Assembly (NCBI RefSeq): GCF_002966125.1 | Contig: NZ_CP027062.1 | Span: 1,612,001-1,676,000, forward strand | Direction: 5' to 3' | Length of the DNA stretch: 64,000 nucleotides | Source of the DNA: Pukyongia salina | GTDB lineage: Bacteria > Bacteroidota > Bacteroidia > Flavobacteriales > Flavobacteriaceae | Shown: in pieces, positions 28,390-39,313 of the stretch | Numbering within the stretch: the first letter of the stretch is position 1 | How the letters are laid out: every line of letters starts with the position of its first letter | Made by a program: the position numbers and the translations under genes | The notes under the pieces: model-generated | Databases searched by the model: none | The model's input: only the letters and a program-made list of their open reading frames with translations | What the model was told of the DNA's origin: nothing

Positions 28390-29019
28390 CTAAGTCTTAG
28401 ATCTACCCGTTAATACACTCACTCCAGACCAACCTGCTCCTATAACCATAAATAAGATCCCACCCAGCATCATTAGGTTTATGCCACCGGCCGAATTTTC
28501 CATATCGAATTTAAAGATGGAATTACCCAAAGCATCTTTGTCTACTTCTATATTCTCGGCCTCTGGCGGAAAACTTATCGTAAACGTTTGTTGTATGGTC
28601 CCTCCAAATTCTTCCGGACTACTTACCAGCATGTATTTATGATCGGTAAGTTTGGTTAGGTTGGCATTCTTCTGGTCCGTATCTATGGTCCACACACCGC
28701 GCTTGTTGATCTCACACACTCCATAGGCGTTCAGGCTAAGGGTGAAGGATCTGTTCATTTCGTCTTTTTCAAGTTTAAAGTCATCTAGAAAATAAGCTGG
28801 CATAGACCGCTCTACCTCGCGTTTTAATGCTGCCGGGTTATTCCCCAGAGTGCCCACCCATACCTGCCACTGCTGGGCGTTCATTGTCATTGAAACATTG
28901 ATCTTGGCATTCCCTACCGCATCAATATCCATGTCTATTTTCTGTTGTGTTTGCTGGCCGTATACCCATACAGTTGAAAGTAATAGGAATAGGAGCATTA
29001 TATTTTTCGAATTTTTCAT
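28390..29019 (-). CDS. Exported protein with C-terminal membrane anchor, function unknown
   Basis: 209 residues: signal peptide (LLFLLLSTVWVYGQ), a beta-rich periplasmic domain (about 22-170) and a C-terminal transmembrane helix (GGINLMMLGGILFMVIGAGW) followed by a short basic tail. Opening KIDMDIDAVGNAKINVSMTMNAQQWQVW suggests a domain that is common in secreted Bacteroidota proteins but unnamed. It starts 18 bases after the transglutaminase-like gene stop, in the same direction, and both are single-span exported proteins, so they may form a complex. Confidence 0.65.
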   Translation of the reverse strand: MKNSKNIMLLFLLLSTVWVYGQQTQQKIDMDIDAVGNAKINVSMTMNAQQWQVWVGTLGNNPAALKREVERSMPAYFLDDFKLEKDEMNRSFTLSLNAYGVCEINKRGVWTIDTDQKNANLTKLTDHKYMLVSSPEEFGGTIQQTFTISFPPEAENIEVDKDALGNSIFKFDMENSAGGINLMMLGGILFMVIGAGWSGVSVLTGRSKT

Positions 29020-29036: not shown

Positions 29037-30668
29037 TTAACGAATACTATTAAAAACCTGGGTTATATAACCCGAACTCTGGTTATACAGATAATCGGGC
29101 GCACCTACAGCCACCAATCGAATACCTCCGTTTCGGCCCAAGGTTTTACCTACCCAATTAAATACTCCGCTATTAGAATATGTTTGTCCGGTAACCTGGT
29201 TGCCATTCAATTGGTATTGCATGGACATTCCATAGTTTTGAAAATACTGGTTTATTATTCCCAGAGCTTCCTGTCCACTGGATGCGGGTACATCGAATAC
29301 GGTAACTGTGGTGGATTGGTCCGGGGCAACAACCTGAGCTGTGATTATAGGGATTTCAGGGACAGGACGCATAAAGGTTTGCCATCCGCCCGGGATTGAA
29401 AAGGATAAAGATGAGCCTCCACCAGAGCCTCCGCCACCACTATTCGAGCCGGTATTTCCACCACTTGCAACACGGCTGTTATTGCTGGTCTTTGCGATAG
29501 TACCTGTGCTTCCCCATGATGTTACGATATCGTCTACTTTTTTTCTAAGGAAATCATCGTCTTTAAGTACCATGGGCGTAACGCCTTGTTGGTTTACTGC
29601 ATGAATGTCCACCACTGTGTATCTCGGGTCACCTGTTTGAGCCTTCTGCATAAATTCGTTTAGCTGCTCCATTCCTTTTTTAAAGGCATCTTCGGCACTC
29701 ATAATACCGCCAATTCCTTCACCACCTATTCCGGTAGATTCGATGGCGTAGTATTGTCCGTTGAGACGAAAACCCGGATAAGCATGTCCGGGAACTAGAA
29801 ATATCATGGGGTCCAGACCTGCATTAGACAGGACGCTTGCGTACAGTAGGCTGAGCTCCAGACACAACCCGGTATTTCCGGTGATCACTTCTCTGGGGAG
29901 CCTGTTGTGCTGTGAAAATTTGGATACATCCTGTAAATTTTCCGGGATACCTTTGGTTCCGCTATACACCATATGAGATAACACGGTAGCGTTGTAGATC
30001 CCGGCAAGAAAACGTACAGCTTCGTTAGGGTCTTTGGTGACAGAAGCTGTTTCCCCCATTAATATTTTCTCCTGGATGTTCTGAGTATAATATTTAACTA
30101 TGGGATCGTTTGGGGTAACGAAACAAGCCAGTAAGGCGTCGTTGTTATAAACATCTCCCCATCCGGCGATCTCTTCGGCCGGAATATTGGTGAAGAGATA
30201 TTCATTCCTGTCGGAGATCCTGAAACTAAATTCCTCATCGATGATATCGTCTTCCTGGGCTCCATCCCAGGATATTTCGATCTCTACTTTCTCCGTAGAT
30301 TCGGTCATTTTTTCTGAAATATCATCTTTGAATTTAGGATAGCAGCGCACCGAGGCGGTCTGTCCCGGAAACATTTCTCCAATCACGTCCAATTCTGTCC
30401 ACTCAACATAGCCGGGAATCCGGTATCGAACCGTTACATCTTCGAGGGTGTTGTCTCCATTATTGGTCATTTTAGCCTTAAAGAGATAGTACTTTCCGTC
30501 CAGTGCCAACTCATTGGCGTATACATTATGCGCCGCAGGCATGATCGAGTTAGATTTCACAATGGAAATGTCGAGATCTCCAGAAGCACTACCGAAACTT
30601 AGAAAACTAAGTGCAAATAGTACGGCTCCTACAAAAAATAGGCTTAAAGGTATTAGTAGTTTTTTCAT
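29037..30668 (-). CDS. Exported transglutaminase-like protein
   Basis: 543 residues. A signal peptide/anchor (LLIPLSLFFVGAVLFALSFLSFG), a beta-domain to about 150, then a transglutaminase-like (papain-fold) core with a credible triad: Cys269 in NTGLCLELSLLYASVL, His295 in VPGHAYPGF and Glu310 in YAIESTG. A Gly/Ser linker (SGGNTGSNSGGGGSGGGSS, near residues 400-420) leads to a C-terminal domain of about 110 residues. Such enzymes cut or cross-link peptides. It lies 70 bases downstream of the S8 protease gene and may belong to the sigma-linked cluster, though no matching ECF promoter is seen before it. Confidence 0.72.
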   Translation of the reverse strand: MKKLLIPLSLFFVGAVLFALSFLSFGSASGDLDISIVKSNSIMPAAHNVYANELALDGKYYLFKAKMTNNGDNTLEDVTVRYRIPGYVEWTELDVIGEMFPGQTASVRCYPKFKDDISEKMTESTEKVEIEISWDGAQEDDIIDEEFSFRISDRNEYLFTNIPAEEIAGWGDVYNNDALLACFVTPNDPIVKYYTQNIQEKILMGETASVTKDPNEAVRFLAGIYNATVLSHMVYSGTKGIPENLQDVSKFSQHNRLPREVITGNTGLCLELSLLYASVLSNAGLDPMIFLVPGHAYPGFRLNGQYYAIESTGIGGEGIGGIMSAEDAFKKGMEQLNEFMQKAQTGDPRYTVVDIHAVNQQGVTPMVLKDDDFLRKKVDDIVTSWGSTGTIAKTSNNSRVASGGNTGSNSGGGGSGGGSSLSFSIPGGWQTFMRPVPEIPIITAQVVAPDQSTTVTVFDVPASSGQEALGIINQYFQNYGMSMQYQLNGNQVTGQTYSNSGVFNWVGKTLGRNGGIRLVAVGAPDYLYNQSSGYITQVFNSIR

Positions 30669-30738: not shown

Positions 30739-32601
30739 CTATTGTTTTATAATTTTTACTGTTGAATTGCTTCCTTCTGAAGTGATAACCTCCGCCAGGT
30801 AGATTCCGCTGTCTCCCACGATTTCCATGGATAGTTCATTCGTATTTCTGAAGACTTCCGAGTTAATGATCTGTCCAAGAATATTTCTAACAACTACACT
30901 AACTTCTGCATAGGAATTGTCCAGATGAACTTTAAAAAATCCGGGAGTAGGATTGGGTACGACGGCAAAATTCTTAAACTCGTTTTGCCCTATACCCAGT
31001 ATTCGTTCGATAGCAGCAAGGGCGTCCAGTTTTCCATAACCCCAGGTGTGGTTAGGAACACTACCCGTGAACGAATCCTGCCGGGCGGATTGTTGTAAAA
31101 TGGATTTTATCTCGGCGGGTGTTAAGCTAGGATCGGCTTCCAGCATCAAGGCGATGACACCTGTAGATAAAGGCGCCGCAGCACTCACCGCATTTTGTAT
31201 TCCGTATAACCCATTACTATTTTGCAGTACATTGAAGGTAAAGCTCTCATAGTATGTATTATCTGCATAAGCCGCATGGCACACTTCACCCGAGGCTACA
31301 AAGTCGATTCCCAGACGACCGTCTTGAGTAGGACTACTACTGCTGCCTATCCACAATTCTCCGGTTTCACCCTGACCCGTAATGTCTCTTGGGATACCGT
31401 TAATATCCACCCAGTCGTTCTGTACCACATAATCTCCCGGAGTGATCACAAGGTTGGCACTAGCATAGTCATTTATGCTATATCCGGGCGAAACGAAGGA
31501 GGTGAATCTGTTATTATTATAATAGGTGGATGGGTTCAGGACTGCATGAAATTCTCCCGAATTGATCTGGGCTCCTTCAAGAATTACTTTATAAGTTCCC
31601 GTAGTTCCGGTAAAGTCGATCATTAATTCTCTTCTGTTGGAAGTGGCCTCATAGAATTCTGTATTTGCTCCGCGATGGTATATCTGGATATCACCCAGAT
31701 TCTGGTCGTTACTTCCGTTAGGTCCTGCCGGGGCAATAAAAGGCCCGGAAACATTTCCATTGGGTCGTTCTACACTTACAGTGAATCTATCGTCCTCACT
31801 ATACCACAGGTCGAATCGAAGGAAACCGGCTTCCCCTTTCATTACATCAACCTCTATAGTTTGATTTTGAGCAACCGTTCCGGAAGCGTGGTTATCGTTT
31901 CCACCATCGTCACCTACGCCACACACAAAGGTGTTTCCATTGCTTACAAAATCATCTATTGCACGGGCTATTAGACTGGTCCCATCTGTAGGTCCTCCAA
32001 TGGAACCAATGTTCATTAATGTTACGGCGGGGAGCCCTAATTCGGCGATCTTATCTTCCGCAAATTGCATCGCAACAGGCAAATAGGCGGGATTAAAAAA
32101 GCCAGCTTGTCCCGGCTCTGAGCCAAATGCCGGGAAAGGATCATGTGTTATTTTTATACTTATTAGAGTTGCATTTGGTGCTACCCCCTGAAATTCTAAA
32201 CCGGTAGTTCCACTGCCATTTCCCGCTGCGATACCACTCGTTGCCGTACCATGTCCGTATCTGTCTGTAGACAAAGGCGGATCATTATTATCGAGGGCGA
32301 TATCGATCGCATTTCTATCGAAGATGGTACCTATGCCATAGGGGTTGTTCGGGTCGTTTGCACCGGTGGGGTCTATCATATCGTAGATATAGGCCAGCCT
32401 GGTATTTCCGTTCGAGTCCAGAAAATCGGGATGCCGGTAGTCTATCCCACGGTCCAGGATCACAATAAGTACGTCTTCTCCGCTTAAATTGTACTGAGCG
32501 TAGACATCATCCAGATTTGCTTCAACCCTTGGAGGAATTCCTTGGGCTACAACACTTAAACAGAAGAAAAGGAGAGTGTAAGTAGTAAGGATTGTTTTCA
32601 T
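30739..32601 (-). CDS. Secreted S8 (subtilisin-like) protease with T9SS sorting domain
   Basis: 620 residues from ATG 32601 (a farther in-frame start is over the promoter). Signal peptide to about residue 20; S8 domain with Asp50 (VLIVILDRGIDYRHPDF), His117 (DRYGHGTATSGIAAG) and Ser473 (NAVSAAAPLSTG, replacing the usual GTSMAAP), and a large insertion between His and Ser. The C-terminal 75 residues (NPTPGFFKVHLDN ... SGIYLAEVITSEGSNSTVKIIKQ) are a type A T9SS sorting domain, so it is exported and attached to or released from the cell surface. Its own ECF-type promoter lies at 32631-32660. Confidence 0.9.
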   Translation of the reverse strand: MKTILTTYTLLFFCLSVVAQGIPPRVEANLDDVYAQYNLSGEDVLIVILDRGIDYRHPDFLDSNGNTRLAYIYDMIDPTGANDPNNPYGIGTIFDRNAIDIALDNNDPPLSTDRYGHGTATSGIAAGNGSGTTGLEFQGVAPNATLISIKITHDPFPAFGSEPGQAGFFNPAYLPVAMQFAEDKIAELGLPAVTLMNIGSIGGPTDGTSLIARAIDDFVSNGNTFVCGVGDDGGNDNHASGTVAQNQTIEVDVMKGEAGFLRFDLWYSEDDRFTVSVERPNGNVSGPFIAPAGPNGSNDQNLGDIQIYHRGANTEFYEATSNRRELMIDFTGTTGTYKVILEGAQINSGEFHAVLNPSTYYNNNRFTSFVSPGYSINDYASANLVITPGDYVVQNDWVDINGIPRDITGQGETGELWIGSSSSPTQDGRLGIDFVASGEVCHAAYADNTYYESFTFNVLQNSNGLYGIQNAVSAAAPLSTGVIALMLEADPSLTPAEIKSILQQSARQDSFTGSVPNHTWGYGKLDALAAIERILGIGQNEFKNFAVVPNPTPGFFKVHLDNSYAEVSVVVRNILGQIINSEVFRNTNELSMEIVGDSGIYLAEVITSEGSNSTVKIIKQ

Positions 32602-32630: not shown

Positions 32631-32660
32631 TCACATCGGCTAACTATCGAAATGTCATCA
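32631..32660 (-). promoter_or_regulatory. ECF sigma promoter of the S8 protease gene
   Basis: On the minus strand: TGATGACA, 14 bases, CGATGTGA. Identical elements and spacing occur before the sigma gene (37321-37350) and the divergent hydrolase gene (37373-37402). The -10 ends 30 bases upstream of the ATG. Confidence 0.8.
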
Positions 32661-32674
32661 AAAGGTTGAACGTC

Positions 32675-35600
32675 TTATTTTGTAGGATCTTTTTCCCTGA
32701 AAACGAAAAGCATTACGGCCAGGATCACCAGACCTCCCAGAAACCATGGCCAGAACGGAAATTCGGAATGAAGTTCCAGTGGTGACGTATCTCCCATCAG
32801 CACCAGTCCGGACCAATACTGCGGAGCGAGAGTACGGCCCTTGGCAACCGCCAGGTAACTAAGTTTAGCCTGCCGTAGTGCTTCATCCTTGGGCATTCCA
32901 TCCTTTAGATTATCGTAGAAATATCCAAGGATCTCATTACTGGACTTTTCGTCGATCTTCCACAAACTGGTGAGTATACTTTCACTTCCAGCATAATTAA
33001 ATGCGTGGGCCAGCGAGATCATTCCTTCTCCGGGTTCGAAGGTGGGTTTGCCTGTTTCACACGCGGTGAGAATAGTAAGGTTTGATGCTACGTTATAATC
33101 GTAGATCTCGTAAGTGAACAGGGAGTTGTCTTCACGCTTCGCCTCTTTGGCTACGTCCTTGGCAAAGATCAACCTTGAAAATTCAGGGGTAATATTGTTC
33201 GACTCTGCATGTGTCCCAATATGAATGATCTTGTGCTCCCTGGCATTCAATTTAAAAACCTCTTTGGTAGAGTGTTTGTTCAAAAAGGATTCGCCATCGA
33301 AAATGTTCGCATATTTCTTCACCAGTTCTGTACTGAAAGGTTGAGGAAGTAACTTGATATAGGTTTTATCGAGATCCAGAGAATCGGTAATGGCAAATCT
33401 GTATTCCATCTTCATATCTTCATTGAATTCGGGCGCAAAGGCCACAAAATTCTTTGGATATACATAGGTTGGTGCCGGTTGTTTAAGTAAGAACAAGCTA
33501 TAACTGTAGGAAATCACTTTTTGAGCCAGTAAACTTTGGGTGGCAAGTTGTTTAAAGTGGGTTATCTTAACAGGAGAAAGTGTTTCAAAGCTTAAATTGA
33601 ACAAATCCCTATCGGGAATAATGACCACCTTCCTGGTAGAAACCAGATCTTCAATAGGTCGCCAGAGTTTGTCATAAAGTATCGCTAAGGAAGTTGAGGT
33701 GCGTTCCAGGTCCGACTGGTCTTCAGCTAGATTTAAAATATGTTCCTTAACATGGTCGTAATTCAATGTTCGTATTTCGCTGGTGTTCCTGTTCAGAATA
33801 AAAACAAAGAGGTCATTTTCAATGAAAAAATAACGTACAATTGTAGTGTTTTCAGGAATTTTTTGCTGAATATCCCCAAGATCTTCCTCAATGGTCGCAT
33901 AACGCAAGTCATAGTATTTAGGGTATTTCTGCTTTAGGGTATCCAGAAAAGAACGCCAGTTTTGGGAGGCTTTTAAATAATTTTCCAGTCTGTTAGAGCT
34001 ATCACCTGATAATGCACTGGATATAGACGTTTTAAGTTCATTTTCTTTTTTTAATACCGAATCGGGCAAGCTTCCAAAACTGATATCGTTTTTAACATTA
34101 AACTGCGTTCTAATTCGATTGTAAATACCCGATTCATGGATGGCCACAGTCTTATCCAGATACTTTTTATCTCCACTAAGCTCGAATAATTCGAAATACA
34201 TTTTTTTAGACTCGGTACTCAAGGCCTTGTACTCTTCCAGGATCATATTGACGTCCTCTGGGCTAAAGGTGGTTGTTTTACGCTTTTCAAGCGACGCAAC
34301 CGCTTTGTTCAATTTTTCTATTTGCCGCTTTAAAAAAAGTGAGTCTCTGGACGTGTTCGTACGGTATAAAGAACGTACCTCCATTAGTGTAATAGCTGGA
34401 CGTCTAAATTCTACCTGTACCGAATCAATATCAGATTTTGCATCTTTGAGTTTCAGATCTAATATTTCCTTCCCTTTTTGCGCCCATTTCTGGGCGTTTT
34501 CATAATCTGCCGCTTTATAGTAGATTTCAGATAGATTGGTAACTTCCTTGAGGGTGGAAAAACTCGCCGCACCTTCATTCTCAAAAATATAACGGTACGC
34601 ATCCCGGGCAATGTCAATGGCCATTTGAGCTTTTCCATGATCGGCCAGAAATTGAGAATAATCCCTTAGAAAAATAAGAAACTCCTGGCTGTATGCTTCG
34701 GGATATGCTTTTCTAAAAAGCTTGAGACTGGTTTTAAAATAGGAATCGGCTTTTTCAATTTCACCTATAGCTGCATGGCTCTTTCCCAGCATAGCGTAAA
34801 CATCTGCCTCGACAGAGGGATATTCGCTGGGTGATTTTTTTAAATTCTCCAACGCCAAAGTAGCTGTAGCTATGCTCTTATCAAATTCTTTTAATTCGAA
34901 CTCCGCCAGGGCTATTTGTGTTAAGGATGTTGCCAGGCGCGGACTGTGGATCTCGTACACCTCCTTCTTTTTTTCGTGGGCGAAGAGCAGCATCTCATAA
35001 GCTTTGGTAAGATAACCCGTATCGTTGTAAAAGGCGGCCAGGTTTGAAATAGCTGAAGCGAGCAACCGCTTCGATTTCTTTACCAGGAAGTCGTCCTCAC
35101 ATTCGTTGATGATCTTCTGAAGCTGTTTTATAATTTCCTCCTTCATGGCAATAGCTTCGCCAAGTTGCCCCTGGGCGTCGATCACCAACGCCAGATTAAA
35201 TTGGAACGCCACGATATAATAAGTGCGATTAAATCCTGTAAGATCACTTTCTTCGGTTGCCGAAATTGCCTTGTTGAAATAGATGCGAGCGCTGTCTAAT
35301 TTATTCAGGGTCCACATGGAAACGGCTACTCCATTGTATGCATCTGCCAAAATATCCTTCTTCACAGCCGCCGATCGTTCATAGGCTGAAGCAGAAGCCT
35401 TAAAATATTTCAACGCATTGGCAAGGTCGTAGAGGGCATAGTAATTACCACCTATGGCGTAGTTGATCTTACCCAGTTCTTCCTGAGTTACATCCGGAAT
35501 GGTGTTAGCATACTGCAGGGCAGTAAGAGACGATTTCAGGGCGTTTTGATCGTCTACAAGGAATACATACAGGTTGTCTATGTCCAGGTACGCTTTGCTG

Positions 35601-35926
35601 AGGGTGCGGGGATTATTGGTTTTGGTTTTCAGATAACTAATAAAGGCTTCAGCTTTGGCGGCTGCGGTTTTGGCGTCATGCTGCAATTTGGCAATACGCC
35701 CAATTTTTCCAGGAAATTGATGTAGGGAATCCAGTTGCCCTGCCTGAAGGAAGATCTCCCGCTGTTTTTGCAGAACCGAATCTGCCTTTTTTGGCTGATT
35801 GGCATCAATGTAGGCATCAACAGTCTGCTGCCAGGTATTTCTTTCGGATTGCGAATGCAATTCAAATATTCCGAAAATACACAGCAGTAGCAAAACCCCA
35901 AAATACTTGCCGGGTATTGGTTTCAT
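32675..35926 (-). CDS. TPR-CHAT (caspase-like) protein with C-terminal membrane helix
   Basis: 1083 residues. N-terminal signal/anchor (FGVLLLLCIFGIFELHS), then a long TPR array (about 30-480; examples EELGKINYAIGGNYYALYDLANALKYFKASASAYE and AKAYEMLLFAHEKKKE-type helices), a coiled region, and a CHAT domain (about 720-1050) with the caspase-type dyad His906 (IHIGTHAES) and Cys956 (LTACETG), the second followed by EPGEGMISLAHAFNYAGSESILTSLWKID. A transmembrane helix ends the protein (PWFLGGLVILAVMLFVF). CHAT domains cut specific protein partners when the TPR part receives a signal. It follows the TPR membrane protein by 10 bases in the sigma-factor operon. Export of the CHAT domain (periplasmic) is predicted from the N-terminal signal. 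Confidence 0.87.
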   Translation of the reverse strand: MKPIPGKYFGVLLLLCIFGIFELHSQSERNTWQQTVDAYIDANQPKKADSVLQKQREIFLQAGQLDSLHQFPGKIGRIAKLQHDAKTAAAKAEAFISYLKTKTNNPRTLSKAYLDIDNLYVFLVDDQNALKSSLTALQYANTIPDVTQEELGKINYAIGGNYYALYDLANALKYFKASASAYERSAAVKKDILADAYNGVAVSMWTLNKLDSARIYFNKAISATEESDLTGFNRTYYIVAFQFNLALVIDAQGQLGEAIAMKEEIIKQLQKIINECEDDFLVKKSKRLLASAISNLAAFYNDTGYLTKAYEMLLFAHEKKKEVYEIHSPRLATSLTQIALAEFELKEFDKSIATATLALENLKKSPSEYPSVEADVYAMLGKSHAAIGEIEKADSYFKTSLKLFRKAYPEAYSQEFLIFLRDYSQFLADHGKAQMAIDIARDAYRYIFENEGAASFSTLKEVTNLSEIYYKAADYENAQKWAQKGKEILDLKLKDAKSDIDSVQVEFRRPAITLMEVRSLYRTNTSRDSLFLKRQIEKLNKAVASLEKRKTTTFSPEDVNMILEEYKALSTESKKMYFELFELSGDKKYLDKTVAIHESGIYNRIRTQFNVKNDISFGSLPDSVLKKENELKTSISSALSGDSSNRLENYLKASQNWRSFLDTLKQKYPKYYDLRYATIEEDLGDIQQKIPENTTIVRYFFIENDLFVFILNRNTSEIRTLNYDHVKEHILNLAEDQSDLERTSTSLAILYDKLWRPIEDLVSTRKVVIIPDRDLFNLSFETLSPVKITHFKQLATQSLLAQKVISYSYSLFLLKQPAPTYVYPKNFVAFAPEFNEDMKMEYRFAITDSLDLDKTYIKLLPQPFSTELVKKYANIFDGESFLNKHSTKEVFKLNAREHKIIHIGTHAESNNITPEFSRLIFAKDVAKEAKREDNSLFTYEIYDYNVASNLTILTACETGKPTFEPGEGMISLAHAFNYAGSESILTSLWKIDEKSSNEILGYFYDNLKDGMPKDEALRQAKLSYLAVAKGRTLAPQYWSGLVLMGDTSPLELHSEFPFWPWFLGGLVILAVMLFVFREKDPTK

Positions 35927-35936
35927 GAAAAGTTAG

Positions 35937-36674
35937 TTAGTCTTTGATTTCAGAAAGTATCTCCTTCGCACTTTCTTCTTTACTAAAGGTAAGATAATTT
36001 ATGGCTTCTTCAATATCGCCAATTTTTAAATAAGCCAGACCCAGATAATGAGCCGTTTCAGCGGAAAAACTATTGTCCTCCATATTCCATAGAGGTTGCA
36101 GATATTTAATAGAGTTATCGGGATCGCCTTTTGCCAGATAAGCAACACCCCGGAAATAATGTAAAGTGTCCATGCCCATGGCATCATCCCTTATAGTTTC
36201 CCACTTGCTAAGAGCAGTTTTGTAATCGCCTTGTTTATAATTTACCATGCCCTCATAAAACTCGTAATTGGCTGTGGAGCTCATGATAGTGGGTAGGCCG
36301 GGATCCGGACTAAAATGTTTGGCGTAGAGCTTTTCGTAATCGTTATCGCTTTTTAGCATCCAGAACAGGCCAAATGCCACTATGAGGATGGCGGCTATTG
36401 ACCATCGCCAGATTACGGTACTTCGGTTTCCGCCACCAGAAGCGATGTCTCTTACCGGAGTGAGATCTGCGTGAAATGCCTCCATTTTATCTTTAAGAAC
36501 AGCTGTTTCCACACCCAGAATTAACACTCGCAGCTCCTCCAGCTGTGCGGCAAGTTGTGGATCTGTGGTCAGTTCAGATTCGAATCGGGATCTTTCATCT
36601 ACGCTCATTTTCCCTTCCAGGTATTGCTCAATACGCTCAAAACGTTCCTGTGATATGTTTTCTGAATTATTCAT
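35937..36674 (-). CDS. Membrane-anchored TPR protein, candidate anti-sigma factor
   Basis: 245 residues. Cytoplasmic N-terminus (1-82) with the anti-sigma-like EQYLEGKMSVDERSRFESELTTDPQLAAQLEELRVL helical pattern, one transmembrane helix (about 87-106, VIWRWSIAAILIVAFGLFWML), then periplasmic TPRs (about 140-240, e.g. YEGMVNYKQGDYKTALSKWETI and AETAHYLGLAYLKIGDIEEAI). No zinc-finger HxxxCxxC is seen. Starts 8 bases inside the end of the sigma gene, so it is translationally coupled to it, the usual place for an anti-sigma factor. Regulation of the sigma factor by periplasmic events is inference. Confidence 0.78.
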   Translation of the reverse strand: MNNSENISQERFERIEQYLEGKMSVDERSRFESELTTDPQLAAQLEELRVLILGVETAVLKDKMEAFHADLTPVRDIASGGGNRSTVIWRWSIAAILIVAFGLFWMLKSDNDYEKLYAKHFSPDPGLPTIMSSTANYEFYEGMVNYKQGDYKTALSKWETIRDDAMGMDTLHYFRGVAYLAKGDPDNSIKYLQPLWNMEDNSFSAETAHYLGLAYLKIGDIEEAINYLTFSKEESAKEILSEIKD

Positions 36675-37242
36675 TTTTAAAAATTGGGGTCTTTGCTAAT
36701 TCTCTTAATTTATTGATACAACGATATTTTTTATTGCGCGCAGAGGCTTCACCAATTTCGAAGGCCATCGCAATTTCCCGCAGCGACTTTTTCTCAAAAT
36801 AGAAATGAGTAAGCAGTTGTTTGCATTCATTCCCTAACTGCCGAAATGCTTCCATCGCATTGTTGAGTTGCTCAATATTATCGGTAGACGTTTCGTCGAA
36901 CTCGTCCGGAATTTCGTATCCCTCTCCTATGGATGAGGTCTTCTTAAATTGAGAAGATCTCAAATAATCCGTCCATTTGTTTTTCGCGATCCTGTACAAA
37001 TACCCTTGTAAAGCAGTTTCGTTAGTAGGTACGAATTTTCCACTTTTCACGTTTTGCCAGGTCGCGATAAAAGCCTCCTGGTAGGTGTCCTTTGCCTGGG
37101 GTTTGGTTCCGTTATTCTTCAAAATATGTACTTCAATTTTACCATAACATTCCTGGTATAACTGTTTCAGAACTAATTCATCATTGTTCTTTACAGCCTC
37201 TGCCATATGCAATTGCGCCGTTATTTGATTAGTGTTCCCCAT
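36667..37242 (-). CDS. ECF RNA polymerase sigma factor
   Basis: 191 residues. Region 2: VLKQLYQECYGKIEVHILKNN and KDTYQEAFIATWQNV with YLYRIAKNKWTDYLR (2.4, binding the -10 element). Region 4: ECKQLLTHFYFEKKSLREIAMAFEIGEASARNKKYRCINKLREL (HTH for the -35). It directs polymerase to a small set of promoters; the three TGATGACA-N14-CGATGT elements in this neighbourhood, one of them ahead of its own gene, are the predicted target. First gene of the operon with the TPR anti-sigma candidate and TPR-CHAT protein. Confidence 0.9.
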   Translation of the reverse strand: MGNTNQITAQLHMAEAVKNNDELVLKQLYQECYGKIEVHILKNNGTKPQAKDTYQEAFIATWQNVKSGKFVPTNETALQGYLYRIAKNKWTDYLRSSQFKKTSSIGEGYEIPDEFDETSTDNIEQLNNAMEAFRQLGNECKQLLTHFYFEKKSLREIAMAFEIGEASARNKKYRCINKLRELAKTPIFKNE

Positions 37243-37320
37243 CGTACGTAGATAGGGAAAAGATACAATTTTTTTTCAATCGTAACTTTACTGAAATCTA
37301 TAAAGCAGCGCCTTTCACAC

Positions 37321-37350
37321 TCACATCGTATTAAGATTATTTTGTCATCA
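37321..37350 (-). promoter_or_regulatory. ECF sigma promoter of the sigma-factor operon
   Basis: On the minus strand TGATGACA - 14 bases - CGATGTGA, the same as at 32631-32660. The -10 ends 79 bases before the sigma ATG, leaving a leader of about 70 bases. Its TGATGACA arm is the inverted partner of the one at 37373, so the two promoters are back to back. Confidence 0.8.
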
Positions 37351-37372
37351 TTGGATTCAATAATTTTTAAAG

Positions 37373-37402
37373 TGATGACAATTTTGTTTTGCTTCGATGT
37401 AA
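37373..37402 (+). promoter_or_regulatory. ECF sigma promoter of the secreted serine hydrolase gene
   Basis: TGATGACA (37373-37380), 14 bases, CGATGTAA (37395-37402); the -10 ends 27 bases before the ATG at 37430. Confidence 0.8.
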
Positions 37403-37429: not shown

Positions 37430-39313
37430 ATGAAACGACTATTATCATTTGTATCGGCATTACTACTTGGAGTCTGCAGCATTGCTCAAAACGGAATACC
37501 CGTCCCACAGATGAGTAGTTGCGATACTCAGGTTCAAAATTTAATGGCCACTTATAATATACCCGGCTTAACTTTTGCACTCGCAAAAGATGGAGAGTTA
37601 AAATACATGAGGTCCTTCGGAAATGCAGATATCTCAGCGACTCAACCCACGCAGCCTTATCATATGTTCAGGGTAGCAAGTGTATCGAAACCCATAACCA
37701 GTATTGGAATAATGAAGATGATAGAAGATGGCGATATCGCACTTGGCGATAAGGTGTTTGGCCCGGGAGGACTTTTAGAGAATCACTGGTATTTTTCGGG
37801 AAGTTCGATCATCGATAACCGCGTTTACGACATAACCGTTCAACACCTCCTGGAACACAGTGCAGGATGGGATAGTAGTGTAGATTGTTTCCCAAACCCT
37901 ACATCTCCATATCCCTGGTTCTTTTCAGGATGTGATCCTATTGCGGTTCCCTTACATGTTACACAAACTCAGGGACAACCTAACCCTGTGAAAGAAGAAT
38001 TCCTTATTAATTATCTATTAGAAAAGAATCTGAACTTCACCCCGGGAACGGCCTATGCATACTCCAATATGGGTTATCTAATCCTTAGCGAGATCATTGA
38101 AGAAGTTTCGGGTAAATCTTATGAAGCCTATATGCAGGACGAGATTCTGCATCCACTGGGGATTTACGATATGTATATTGGAGAGAATTTACTTGAGGAC
38201 AAACGCGAACGTGAAGGCGAATATACAGGAAACGGATTCACAACCCTGGATCTTTATGGAAGCGGTAACCTGGTTCCCTGGCAGTACGGAGGATTTGCAA
38301 TAGACGCCATGGATGGTCACGGAGGTTGGATAGCGACTGCCCGCGATTTGGTAAGACTACTCGTGGCTGTGGACGGCTTCAATACCAAACCCGATATACT
38401 TTTGCCCGCTACCATAACCAATATGGTGACTCCTTCTGTAAATAATGCGAACTACGCAAAAGGATGGGCAGTGAATGCCGGTAATAATTGGTGGCATTCC
38501 GGAGCCGTAGATGGTACCGCTACCTATTGGGTAAGATCTAATAGTGGTTATACCTGGGCGATCTTGTTAAATAAGAGAATCGTTGATGGAACAGCACCCG
38601 CTTTTTGGGCGGCATTGGATGGATTGGGATGGAATTGTATTTCGGGGGCATCGGGGTTTCCAACATTCGATCTTTTAGACGCTCCTACTGTTAATGCCAG
38701 TAACTTACTTGCACAAGGCGATGGTATTTCCACAATGGATCTAAACTGGACCAACGGAAATGGTACTTCCCGTCTAGTGGTTATGAAGGATATAACCAAT
38801 AATACAGATCCCTATAATTTTAGTGCTTACCCACTTGATGGAACAGATTATAATGCCAATGCAGCATTTGGCAGTGGTGATGACCTGGGTGATGGTACCT
38901 ATGTGATGTATAACGGAACCGGTACAGCAGTTACAGTTACCGGACTGGATAACACTAAACGCTATGCGATAAGGGTATACGAGTATAAGAAAAACACGAA
39001 TAATGGGAATAACGCCCTCTATCTGCTTGGAAATCCGGCAGAAAGAGAAGCACTTCTTGGTTTCGAAGAGAACGAATTACAATTTGCAGTGAAAATCTAT
39101 CCTACTATCACTTCAGAATTGCTCCATGTCTATAACGAATTACCAGAGGAACTTAAATTTAAAGTATTCGATCTACAGGGAAGAAGCCTTGTTGCAGGAA
39201 TTGTGGAAAGTGGAGAAAATACCCTCGATGTTTCACGCCTTGATTCCGGCTTATATCTTATAGAAATTACTATAGGCAACAGGCGTACCACAAAACGATT
39301 CGTAATTAAATAG
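37430..39313 (+). CDS. Secreted beta-lactamase-family serine hydrolase with T9SS domain
   Basis: 627 residues. Signal peptide (ends at CSIAQ, residue 20), beta-lactamase/DD-peptidase (class C-like) domain with SxxK (Ser84-V-S-Lys87 in FRVASVSKPIT), the YSN tyrosine motif (AYAYSNMGYLILSEI) and HSG (WWHSGAVDG) replacing KTG. After about residue 405 comes an Fn3-like segment (LDLNWTNGNGTSRLVV ... YAIRVYEYKKN), then a T9SS type A C-terminal domain (FAVKIYPTITSELLHVYN ... LDSGLYLIEITIGNRRTTKRFVIK). Divergent from the sigma operon with its own ECF promoter. Likely a surface esterase or peptidase, not a resistance enzyme. A terminator follows. Confidence 0.9.
   Translation: MKRLLSFVSALLLGVCSIAQNGIPVPQMSSCDTQVQNLMATYNIPGLTFALAKDGELKYMRSFGNADISATQPTQPYHMFRVASVSKPITSIGIMKMIEDGDIALGDKVFGPGGLLENHWYFSGSSIIDNRVYDITVQHLLEHSAGWDSSVDCFPNPTSPYPWFFSGCDPIAVPLHVTQTQGQPNPVKEEFLINYLLEKNLNFTPGTAYAYSNMGYLILSEIIEEVSGKSYEAYMQDEILHPLGIYDMYIGENLLEDKREREGEYTGNGFTTLDLYGSGNLVPWQYGGFAIDAMDGHGGWIATARDLVRLLVAVDGFNTKPDILLPATITNMVTPSVNNANYAKGWAVNAGNNWWHSGAVDGTATYWVRSNSGYTWAILLNKRIVDGTAPAFWAALDGLGWNCISGASGFPTFDLLDAPTVNASNLLAQGDGISTMDLNWTNGNGTSRLVVMKDITNNTDPYNFSAYPLDGTDYNANAAFGSGDDLGDGTYVMYNGTGTAVTVTGLDNTKRYAIRVYEYKKNTNNGNNALYLLGNPAEREALLGFEENELQFAVKIYPTITSELLHVYNELPEELKFKVFDLQGRSLVAGIVESGENTLDVSRLDSGLYLIEITIGNRRTTKRFVIK

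Follow-up and report, generated by a model that had tools for sequence, protein, structure and literature searches.

The stretch of DNA considered here, which we call the window, comprises 64,000 nucleotides of the Pukyongia salina genome (contig NZ_CP027062.1, positions 1,612,001 to 1,676,000, renumbered from 1). On its minus strand lie, in order, the genes of an extracytoplasmic function (ECF) sigma factor, an anti-sigma-like membrane protein with TPR repeats and a TPR-CHAT protein, then an S8 protease and two proteins, TGL and TGL2; a serine hydrolase gene diverges from the sigma gene (table 1). The S8 protease and the serine hydrolase bear the sorting tail of the type IX secretion system (T9SS). 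A 28 bp element, TGATGACA-N14-CGATGT, stands without mismatch ahead of the sigma operon, ahead of the serine hydrolase and, in the third instance, between the CHAT and S8 genes, where a sequence-only reading of this DNA had placed it. The intervals of that reading overshoot the -10 box by 2 bases, and the distances from -10 to start codon that it gave as 27 to 79 bases are 31 (S8 protease), 80 (sigma) and 29 (serine hydrolase). The S8 start was set at 32601; an alternative upstream GTG start overlaps the element. The three identical elements appear to mark a conserved stress-type sigma switch of marine flavobacteria, one that would control secreted and surface proteins.

How is the element distributed over the rest of the genome? 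The single contig of 3,182,272 bases holds no exact copies other than the three in the window, and the reversed control gave none. When up to two mismatches are allowed there are 34 sites, as against 15 in the control: the 3 exact ones, 1 with one mismatch and 30 with two. All four sites of the first two classes stand close ahead of genes, so random scatter, the outcome that would have spoken against the original proposal, is not what the genome displays. The context of the two-mismatch sites could be read for 26 of the 30 (four had no locus). Twenty-two of them fall within open reading frames (ORFs) of at least 110 codons; the remainder are three near-identical copies at about 1.098 Mb of the contig and one site 52 bases ahead of a DnaJ-like ORF. 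The one-mismatch site, at contig position 2673692 and unlinked to the window, lies 64 bases ahead of a gene for a 179-residue outer-membrane beta-barrel protein (PF13568, 44.5 bits). In the window, no site (up to 4 mismatches, spacer 13-15) was found in the 400 bases upstream of TGL, TGL2, the anti-sigma gene or the CHAT gene, and these would therefore rely on promoters ahead of them.

Does the element travel with the sigma factor? Among 299 genomes of the family Flavobacteriaceae, 43 contain a match to the sigma factor (E<=1e-20) and 31 contain the exact element, in 68 copies; the control gave 3 copies. The element is found in 26 of the 43 sigma genomes (62 copies) and in 5 of the 256 others (6 copies; Fisher p 2.8e-21). 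One of these five, G153, has no sigma match at that threshold and carries the element some 210 bases ahead of what is left of a broken CHAT gene (L102/L171); its locus is a decayed or decaying one. The other four hold 5 copies, close to background. Of 266 genomes from other families, 6 hold a single copy, and the control found 2. The background rate of an exact match, taken from the 3 control matches in the 299 family genomes and from the outside-family counts, is thus about 0.01-0.02 per genome.

The sigma search returned 46 rows. Wide flanks were retrieved for 38 of them, the ortholog loci L061-L098; of the rest, two belong to the P. salina genome (the window and L100), and six weak ones (G036, G040, G090, G262 and the second matches of G156 and G233) were left out. 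The near-identical pairs L066/L068, L076/L077 and L093/L094 were kept in all counts except that of 8-mers below, and the scan of genome contigs with a single protein found only 18 loci. A same-strand site (up to 2 mismatches, spacer 14 or 15) lies within 3 kb upstream of sigma in 33 of the 38 loci, so the expected conservation at orthologous loci is borne out. It stands 54-161 bases from the sigma start in 15 loci and farther upstream in 18 more; in 14 of those 18 it precedes sigma's immediate upstream neighbour, a gene that in 8 cases encodes a lipoprotein of about 380 residues. In the close relatives L130 and L131, the latter with a sigma factor 90% identical to that of the window, both divergent promoters (sigma and serine hydrolase) are preserved without mismatch while their spacers have diverged.

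Motif discovery upstream of the sigma orthologs, the check that the sequence-only reading had proposed, leads back to the same word. In a count that presupposed no motif, over 250 bases upstream of 35 sigma genes, TGATGACA was joint top 8-mer, present in 13 of the 35 and tied with AATTGTAT; the largest count in 200 block shuffles was 10. Spacers of 6-25 were examined in 38 regions, namely the window and 37 picked for their sigma match, which together make 1.56 Mb with both strands counted. CGAT follows TGATGACA at spacer 14 in 68 of 96 instances, once at 11, once at 15 and at no other spacer. The composition of 83 sites is also informative. These were selected at no more than one mismatch, and therefore only positions outside the two boxes count as independent evidence: TTTT at 9-12 (75-88%), A29 (73%) and A35 (83%) are conserved, and the A at position 35 is placed as one would expect of the first transcribed base. 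Both species of genus g28 have a spacer of 15 at the sigma promoter (L093, L094), and G027, one of the two, has it also at a lipoprotein-CHAT locus (L169) situated elsewhere in its genome.

Which genes stand behind the element? An ORF start follows within 260 bases at 61 of the 62 exact sites in sigma-bearing genomes. Of the 62 sites, 8 precede sigma and 52 the gene of a predicted exported protein, for 29 of which a crude rule finds a lipobox; the last 2 precede neither. For the 30 one-mismatch sites in these genomes the numbers are 5, 23 and 2. The exported targets begin a median of 29 bp from the site. In sigma-less genomes 2 of the 6 exact sites lie ahead of an exported ORF. Export was called by a custom, crude rule of hydrophobicity and charge, which missed one clear lipoprotein (L076). 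Applied to background ORFs, the rule called 255 of 628 exported; these ORFs were cut at the first possible start and include spurious ones, whereas the targets are the best long ORF within 260 bases, and therefore the two export sets were not picked alike. The tally of downstream genes takes exact sites family-wide and one-mismatch sites only at loci with fetched flanks. Recurrent targets are lipoproteins of about 387 residues (13 loci) and about 256 residues (9 loci), neither with a Pfam match in the one representative of each scanned, proteins whose mature start resembles QVGIGT (8 loci), PF00144 hydrolases (7), S8 proteases (4) and TGL (3).

From these observations we conclude that an autoregulated ECF regulon is well supported by sequence comparison, and that TGATGACATTTT-N10-CGATGTA is very probably the promoter recognized by the ECF sigma factor of the window. 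Autoregulation, as first proposed, is likely. The regulon, proposed at the same time to be local, is not only that: relatives have unlinked sites and this genome has its unlinked one-mismatch site, and we reject a purely local regulon.

Table 1. Features of the sigma locus in the window: position, strand and supporting detail.
Feature	Position	Strand	Detail
Promoter element, sigma-anti-sigma-CHAT operon	37323..37350	-	exact; -10 end 80 bases ahead of sigma ATG
Promoter element, T9SS serine hydrolase	37373..37400	+	exact; -10 end 29 bases ahead of ATG
Promoter element, S8 protease gene and two genes behind it	32633..32660	-	exact; -10 end 31 bases ahead of ATG
Second conserved promoter-like box, TATCTTTT	37258..37265	-	near sigma start; TATMTTTC-like word found by eye; putative promoter
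ECF sigma factor, 191 aa	36667..37242	-	Sigma70_r2 35.8 bits (cut-off 24); TIGR02937 sigma70-ECF 68.4 (cut-off 42.9)
Anti-sigma-like membrane protein with TPR, 245 aa	35937..36674	-	TPR repeats; hydrophobic helix at about residues 86-105
GLPTxM juxtamembrane peptide of anti-sigma	36282..36299	-	G126, L127, P128, T129, M131 invariant in 31/31
TPR-CHAT caspase/separase-like protein, 1083 aa	32675..35926	-	Pfam CHAT PF12770 127 bits (cut-off 24)
S8 (subtilase) protease, T9SS-sorted	30739..32601	-	Peptidase_S8 84.2 bits; Por_Secre_tail 27.1 (cut-off 27)
Serine hydrolase, PF00144 fold, T9SS-sorted	37430..39313	+	Beta-lactamase family 187.2 bits; Por_Secre_tail 36.5
TGL, exported protein	29037..30668	-	likely co-transcribed; no Pfam match
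TGL2, companion of TGL	28390..29019	-	adjoins TGL ortholog in L064, L069, L085, L097

ECF sigma factors are proteins of about 200 residues that have sigma-2 and sigma-4 regions and lack sigma-3. The present one is of this type: it has 191 residues, a TIGR02937 match spanning residues 25-181 and a Sigma70_r2 match above the cut-off. Its neighbour is less easily classified. A hydrophobic stretch of transmembrane (TM) strength, within residues 74-122, occurs in 37 of 38 anti-sigma orthologs by hydropathy only, the remaining one being a fragment. We predict from sequence a cytoplasmic N-terminal domain, a single TM helix and a periplasmic TPR domain. The AlphaFold model has a mean predicted local distance difference test score (pLDDT) of 87. 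The GLPTxM peptide would lie just outside the membrane, and we infer that it is a candidate site of cleavage or docking. Where CHAT is not adjacent, a gene which we take to be RseP-like (start LIVLHELGHF) lies upstream of sigma in two loci (L093:8183-9508 and L094:8125-9450).

What of the TPR-CHAT protein? Its orthologs have an N-terminal, signal-like hydrophobic stretch and, at the C-terminus, a TM-like stretch followed by a basic tail, all judged by hydropathy. Of 35 rows, two are cut by contig ends; the other 33 cover the region, and all keep H902, H906 and C956, the residues of the His/Cys dyad. A second alignment has the dyad in 29 of 29. We predict an exported protein, anchored in the inner membrane, that would face the anti-sigma factor's periplasmic TPR domain; for both proteins the topology comes from hydropathy and one model. 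The structural model of CHAT has a mean pLDDT of 79. In Foldseek its best matches are human separases, at a low TM-score (0.21-0.40 of the query), and Csx29 was not among the best 50 of its 1686 matches; phmmer against the PDB gave weak TPR matches only.

Of the 38 genomes with a strong sigma match (E<=1e-39), 35 have a CHAT ortholog (E<=1e-170); of the 261 others, one does (p 5.5e-41). Two of the three sigma genomes without a CHAT call have contig-cut loci with CHAT pieces (L075, L080). The gene is retained even when relocated (L169, L170). Distant paralogs with another gene order also lie near the anti-sigma family, adjacent and convergent in L100 and G148 and about 5 kb apart in L098; those of L100 and L098 keep the dyad residues. 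L100 is in the P. salina genome itself, at about 224350-228700 of contig 1, where a second sigma/anti-sigma pair is accompanied by a convergent CHAT gene (28% identity for CHAT, 33% for sigma). The sequence-only reading had a caspase-like protein controlled together with the hydrolases. CHAT does belong to the operon behind the sigma promoter, but it seems to be a component of the regulatory machinery and not simply one of its products.

How might such a switch work? The sigma factor would be held by the anti-sigma factor, an inner-membrane protein with a single predicted helix and periplasmic TPR repeats. The TPR domains would read an envelope signal, and CHAT, either as the protease itself or as the sensor of a cascade, would lead to a cut of the anti-sigma factor on its periplasmic side. 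Placing that cut near GLPTxM is speculative. A site-2 protease such as RseP would complete the breakdown, and the released sigma factor would boost its own operon and switch on a small exported set, here the T9SS subtilase, the T9SS serine hydrolase, two further proteins and the unlinked outer-membrane barrel. To this whole chain, with CHAT as sensor or as the site-1 protease that frees sigma, we assign a probability of about 0.5. That CHAT acts upstream of sigma at all, we infer at even odds. In a sharper version, site-1 cleavage in an envelope-stress ECF system would be the work of a periplasmic caspase/separase-like CHAT protein, and the switch would be an envelope-side counterpart of Craspase outside CRISPR, perhaps a relative of its ancestor; we consider this somewhat less likely than not.

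Several observations weigh against this scheme, some at the level of the promoter and some at that of the proteins. The exact element is missing from 17 of the 43 sigma genomes, and five of the 38 sigma loci (L079, L086, L095, L096, L098) have no site within 3 kb upstream of sigma. At position 35 the sigma site of the window has G, unlike the other two sites there, which have A. The spacer shift in genus g28 is incomplete, because G254, a member of that genus, has an exact spacer-14 site ahead of a lipoprotein gene (L101). The anti-sigma protein matches the anti-sigma model NF052375 weakly (22.8 bits, cut-off 100), and the 50 Foldseek matches listed for it are TPR folds, aligned to its TPR part. 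GLPTxM is retained in L093 and L095 although no CHAT gene is adjacent there. The active-site region of the CHAT model is of low confidence, with blocks of pLDDT 44-58 over residues 901-960. Finally, stops break the CHAT copy of G044, and G121 has kept the sigma and anti-sigma genes but has neither a close CHAT ortholog nor a site.

Could CHAT be an output after all? Here the regulon would be real and CHAT a co-expressed periplasmic effector or maturation protease, the anti-sigma factor being released by DegS/RseP-type proteolysis. CHAT does sit downstream of the same autoregulated promoter, secreted hydrolases are among the other regulon members, G121 dispenses with a close ortholog, and the presumed RseP-like gene lies upstream of sigma in L093 and L094. 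We give this alternative somewhat less than an even chance. Against it, CHAT accompanies sigma in the 35 of 38 genomes noted above, whereas the most frequent other target family reaches 13 loci, and both its retention after relocation and the company that its distant paralogs keep with the anti-sigma family argue for a place in the regulator.

We consider it improbable that the element is the site of another sigma or transcription factor that merely co-occurs with this one. CHAT and sigma go together so tightly that their profiles alone cannot part them, and the sigma genomes without an exact site would suit such a view. Against it stand the -35/-10-like geometry, in which the spacer is fixed at 14 bp and an A lies 7 bases farther on, the position of the element ahead of the sigma gene itself, and the spacer of 15 common, with one exception, to the sites of one genus. 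A chance repeat of a short word can be dismissed: the window has no excess at up to three mismatches (6 matches, 4.6 expected), but three exact matches in the genome far exceed the per-genome background in and outside the family, 26 of the 31 family genomes with the element have the sigma factor, and the spacing is fixed.

ECF sigma/anti-sigma switches and autoregulated ECF promoters are of a kind already known. To which known system, then, is this one closest? The nearest functional parallel is Craspase, or CASP, of type III-E CRISPR systems (Csx29, a TPR-CHAT protein; Csx30, a sigma inhibitor; CASP-sigma), for which the data in PMC10028731 support a model of sigma relief through cleavage of the inhibitor. 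As described there, both are three-part sets of an ECF sigma factor, a sigma inhibitor and a TPR-CHAT protein. Craspase is RNA-activated and CRISPR-linked by that account, whereas here CHAT has a signal-like start and a membrane anchor and the anti-sigma factor a TM helix and TPR repeats. The sigma factor scores 34.7 bits against the CAS_III-E_sigma model, below its cut-off of 100. Csx29 is not known to have an export signal or a membrane anchor. Membership of type III-E CASP is rejected on the sigma score and the predicted export of CHAT, no search aimed at a CRISPR array or Cas7-11 having been made.

In RseA/DegS/RseP-type systems, which PMC10028731 also mentions, the anti-sigma factor is a membrane protein and its first cut is expected in the periplasm. 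The present anti-sigma factor would be like RseA in both respects. It would differ in its candidate first protease, a CHAT cysteine protease of the same operon in place of a PDZ serine protease, and in its sensor part, a TPR domain.

ECF54 sigma factors, according to a review (PMC8999054), have subtilase, carboxypeptidase and CHAT neighbours and no anti-sigma factor. The present sigma factor shares the CHAT and subtilase neighbours; an anti-sigma-like gene adjoins it, and by that description we set it apart from ECF54. Two further reports link Bacteroidota ECF sigma factors with secretion, namely SigP with T9SS genes (PMC4800418) and, in a flavobacterium, a T9SS-linked motif SM6 with a CGT -10 box and T9SS machinery targets (PMC9723704). 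The likeness extends to an ECF sigma factor acting on secretion-related genes. Unlike SM6 as given there, the present promoter has a CGATGT -10 and a TGATGACATTTT -35, and its predicted targets are exported substrates. The element also differs, as had been noted, from the housekeeping box TAnnTTTG. EACC2-caspase systems place a caspase-fold protease, an ECF sigma factor and TPR genes side by side (PMC8195603); compared with that description, the constant domains and the gene set differ here. A known anti-phage defence system is rejected: PADLOC models (E<=0.01) matched neither sigma, anti-sigma nor CHAT, and the S8 protease alone matched a subtilase model.

We found no description of a sigma-anti-sigma-CHAT module, or of its promoter, in Bacteroidota in open-licence PMC text, supplements excluded. 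Class I anti-sigma factors are associated with only 6% of Bacteroidetes ECFs, according to one survey (PMC7406223). The locus offers a defined sigma factor, promoter, anti-sigma factor and candidate protease for the Flavobacteriaceae, a family whose ECF circuits are little charted. If the CHAT step is true, caspase-like proteases would be tied to bacterial envelope signalling outside CRISPR, and the Craspase sigma switch would gain a chromosomal parallel that is directly testable.

What other promoters and genes belong to the picture? A word close to TTGTATMTTTC, recognized by eye, stands shortly ahead of the ATG in most of 38 sigma upstream sequences (L061-L097 and the window). It is present also where TGATGACA is not directly upstream, and sometimes lies about 20 bases after TTTG; the joint top 8-mer AATTGTAT goes with it. 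This second box, which in the window is TATCTTTT and which resembles the housekeeping box, may be a basal promoter. A variant element, TGCTCACA-N14-CGATGT, occurs in fetched loci at L085:17821, L085:19816, L088:3805 and L089:3729; three of these four sites are 20-32 bases ahead of exported-looking proteins of about 630 residues, and the variant is perhaps the promoter of a paralogous sigma factor. Motif-like TGATGACA...CGATTA stretches within the sigma coding sequence of the orthologs L046, L049, L050, L054 and L057, at about 1.7-1.86 kb, are probably coding-driven. The lipoprotein family of about 380 residues (L066:10345-11508, L150:2365-3528 and relatives) is likely a further core component: its gene often immediately follows the element and immediately precedes sigma. 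The one member scanned gave no Pfam match, and the window has no copy of the family.

Behind the S8 protease gene lies TGL, which we take to be transglutaminase-like and which has a weak NCBIfam match to the anti-phage protein ProA (59.8 bits, cut-off 1500). Its orthologs have a site of their own directly upstream in L064, L069, L085 and L131, and probably in L141. In L131 that site (L131:13583) repeats the S8 promoter with one mismatch and an unchanged spacer, 31 bases ahead of TGL and with no S8 gene between them. This suggests that a cargo gene has been gained or lost behind a fixed promoter.

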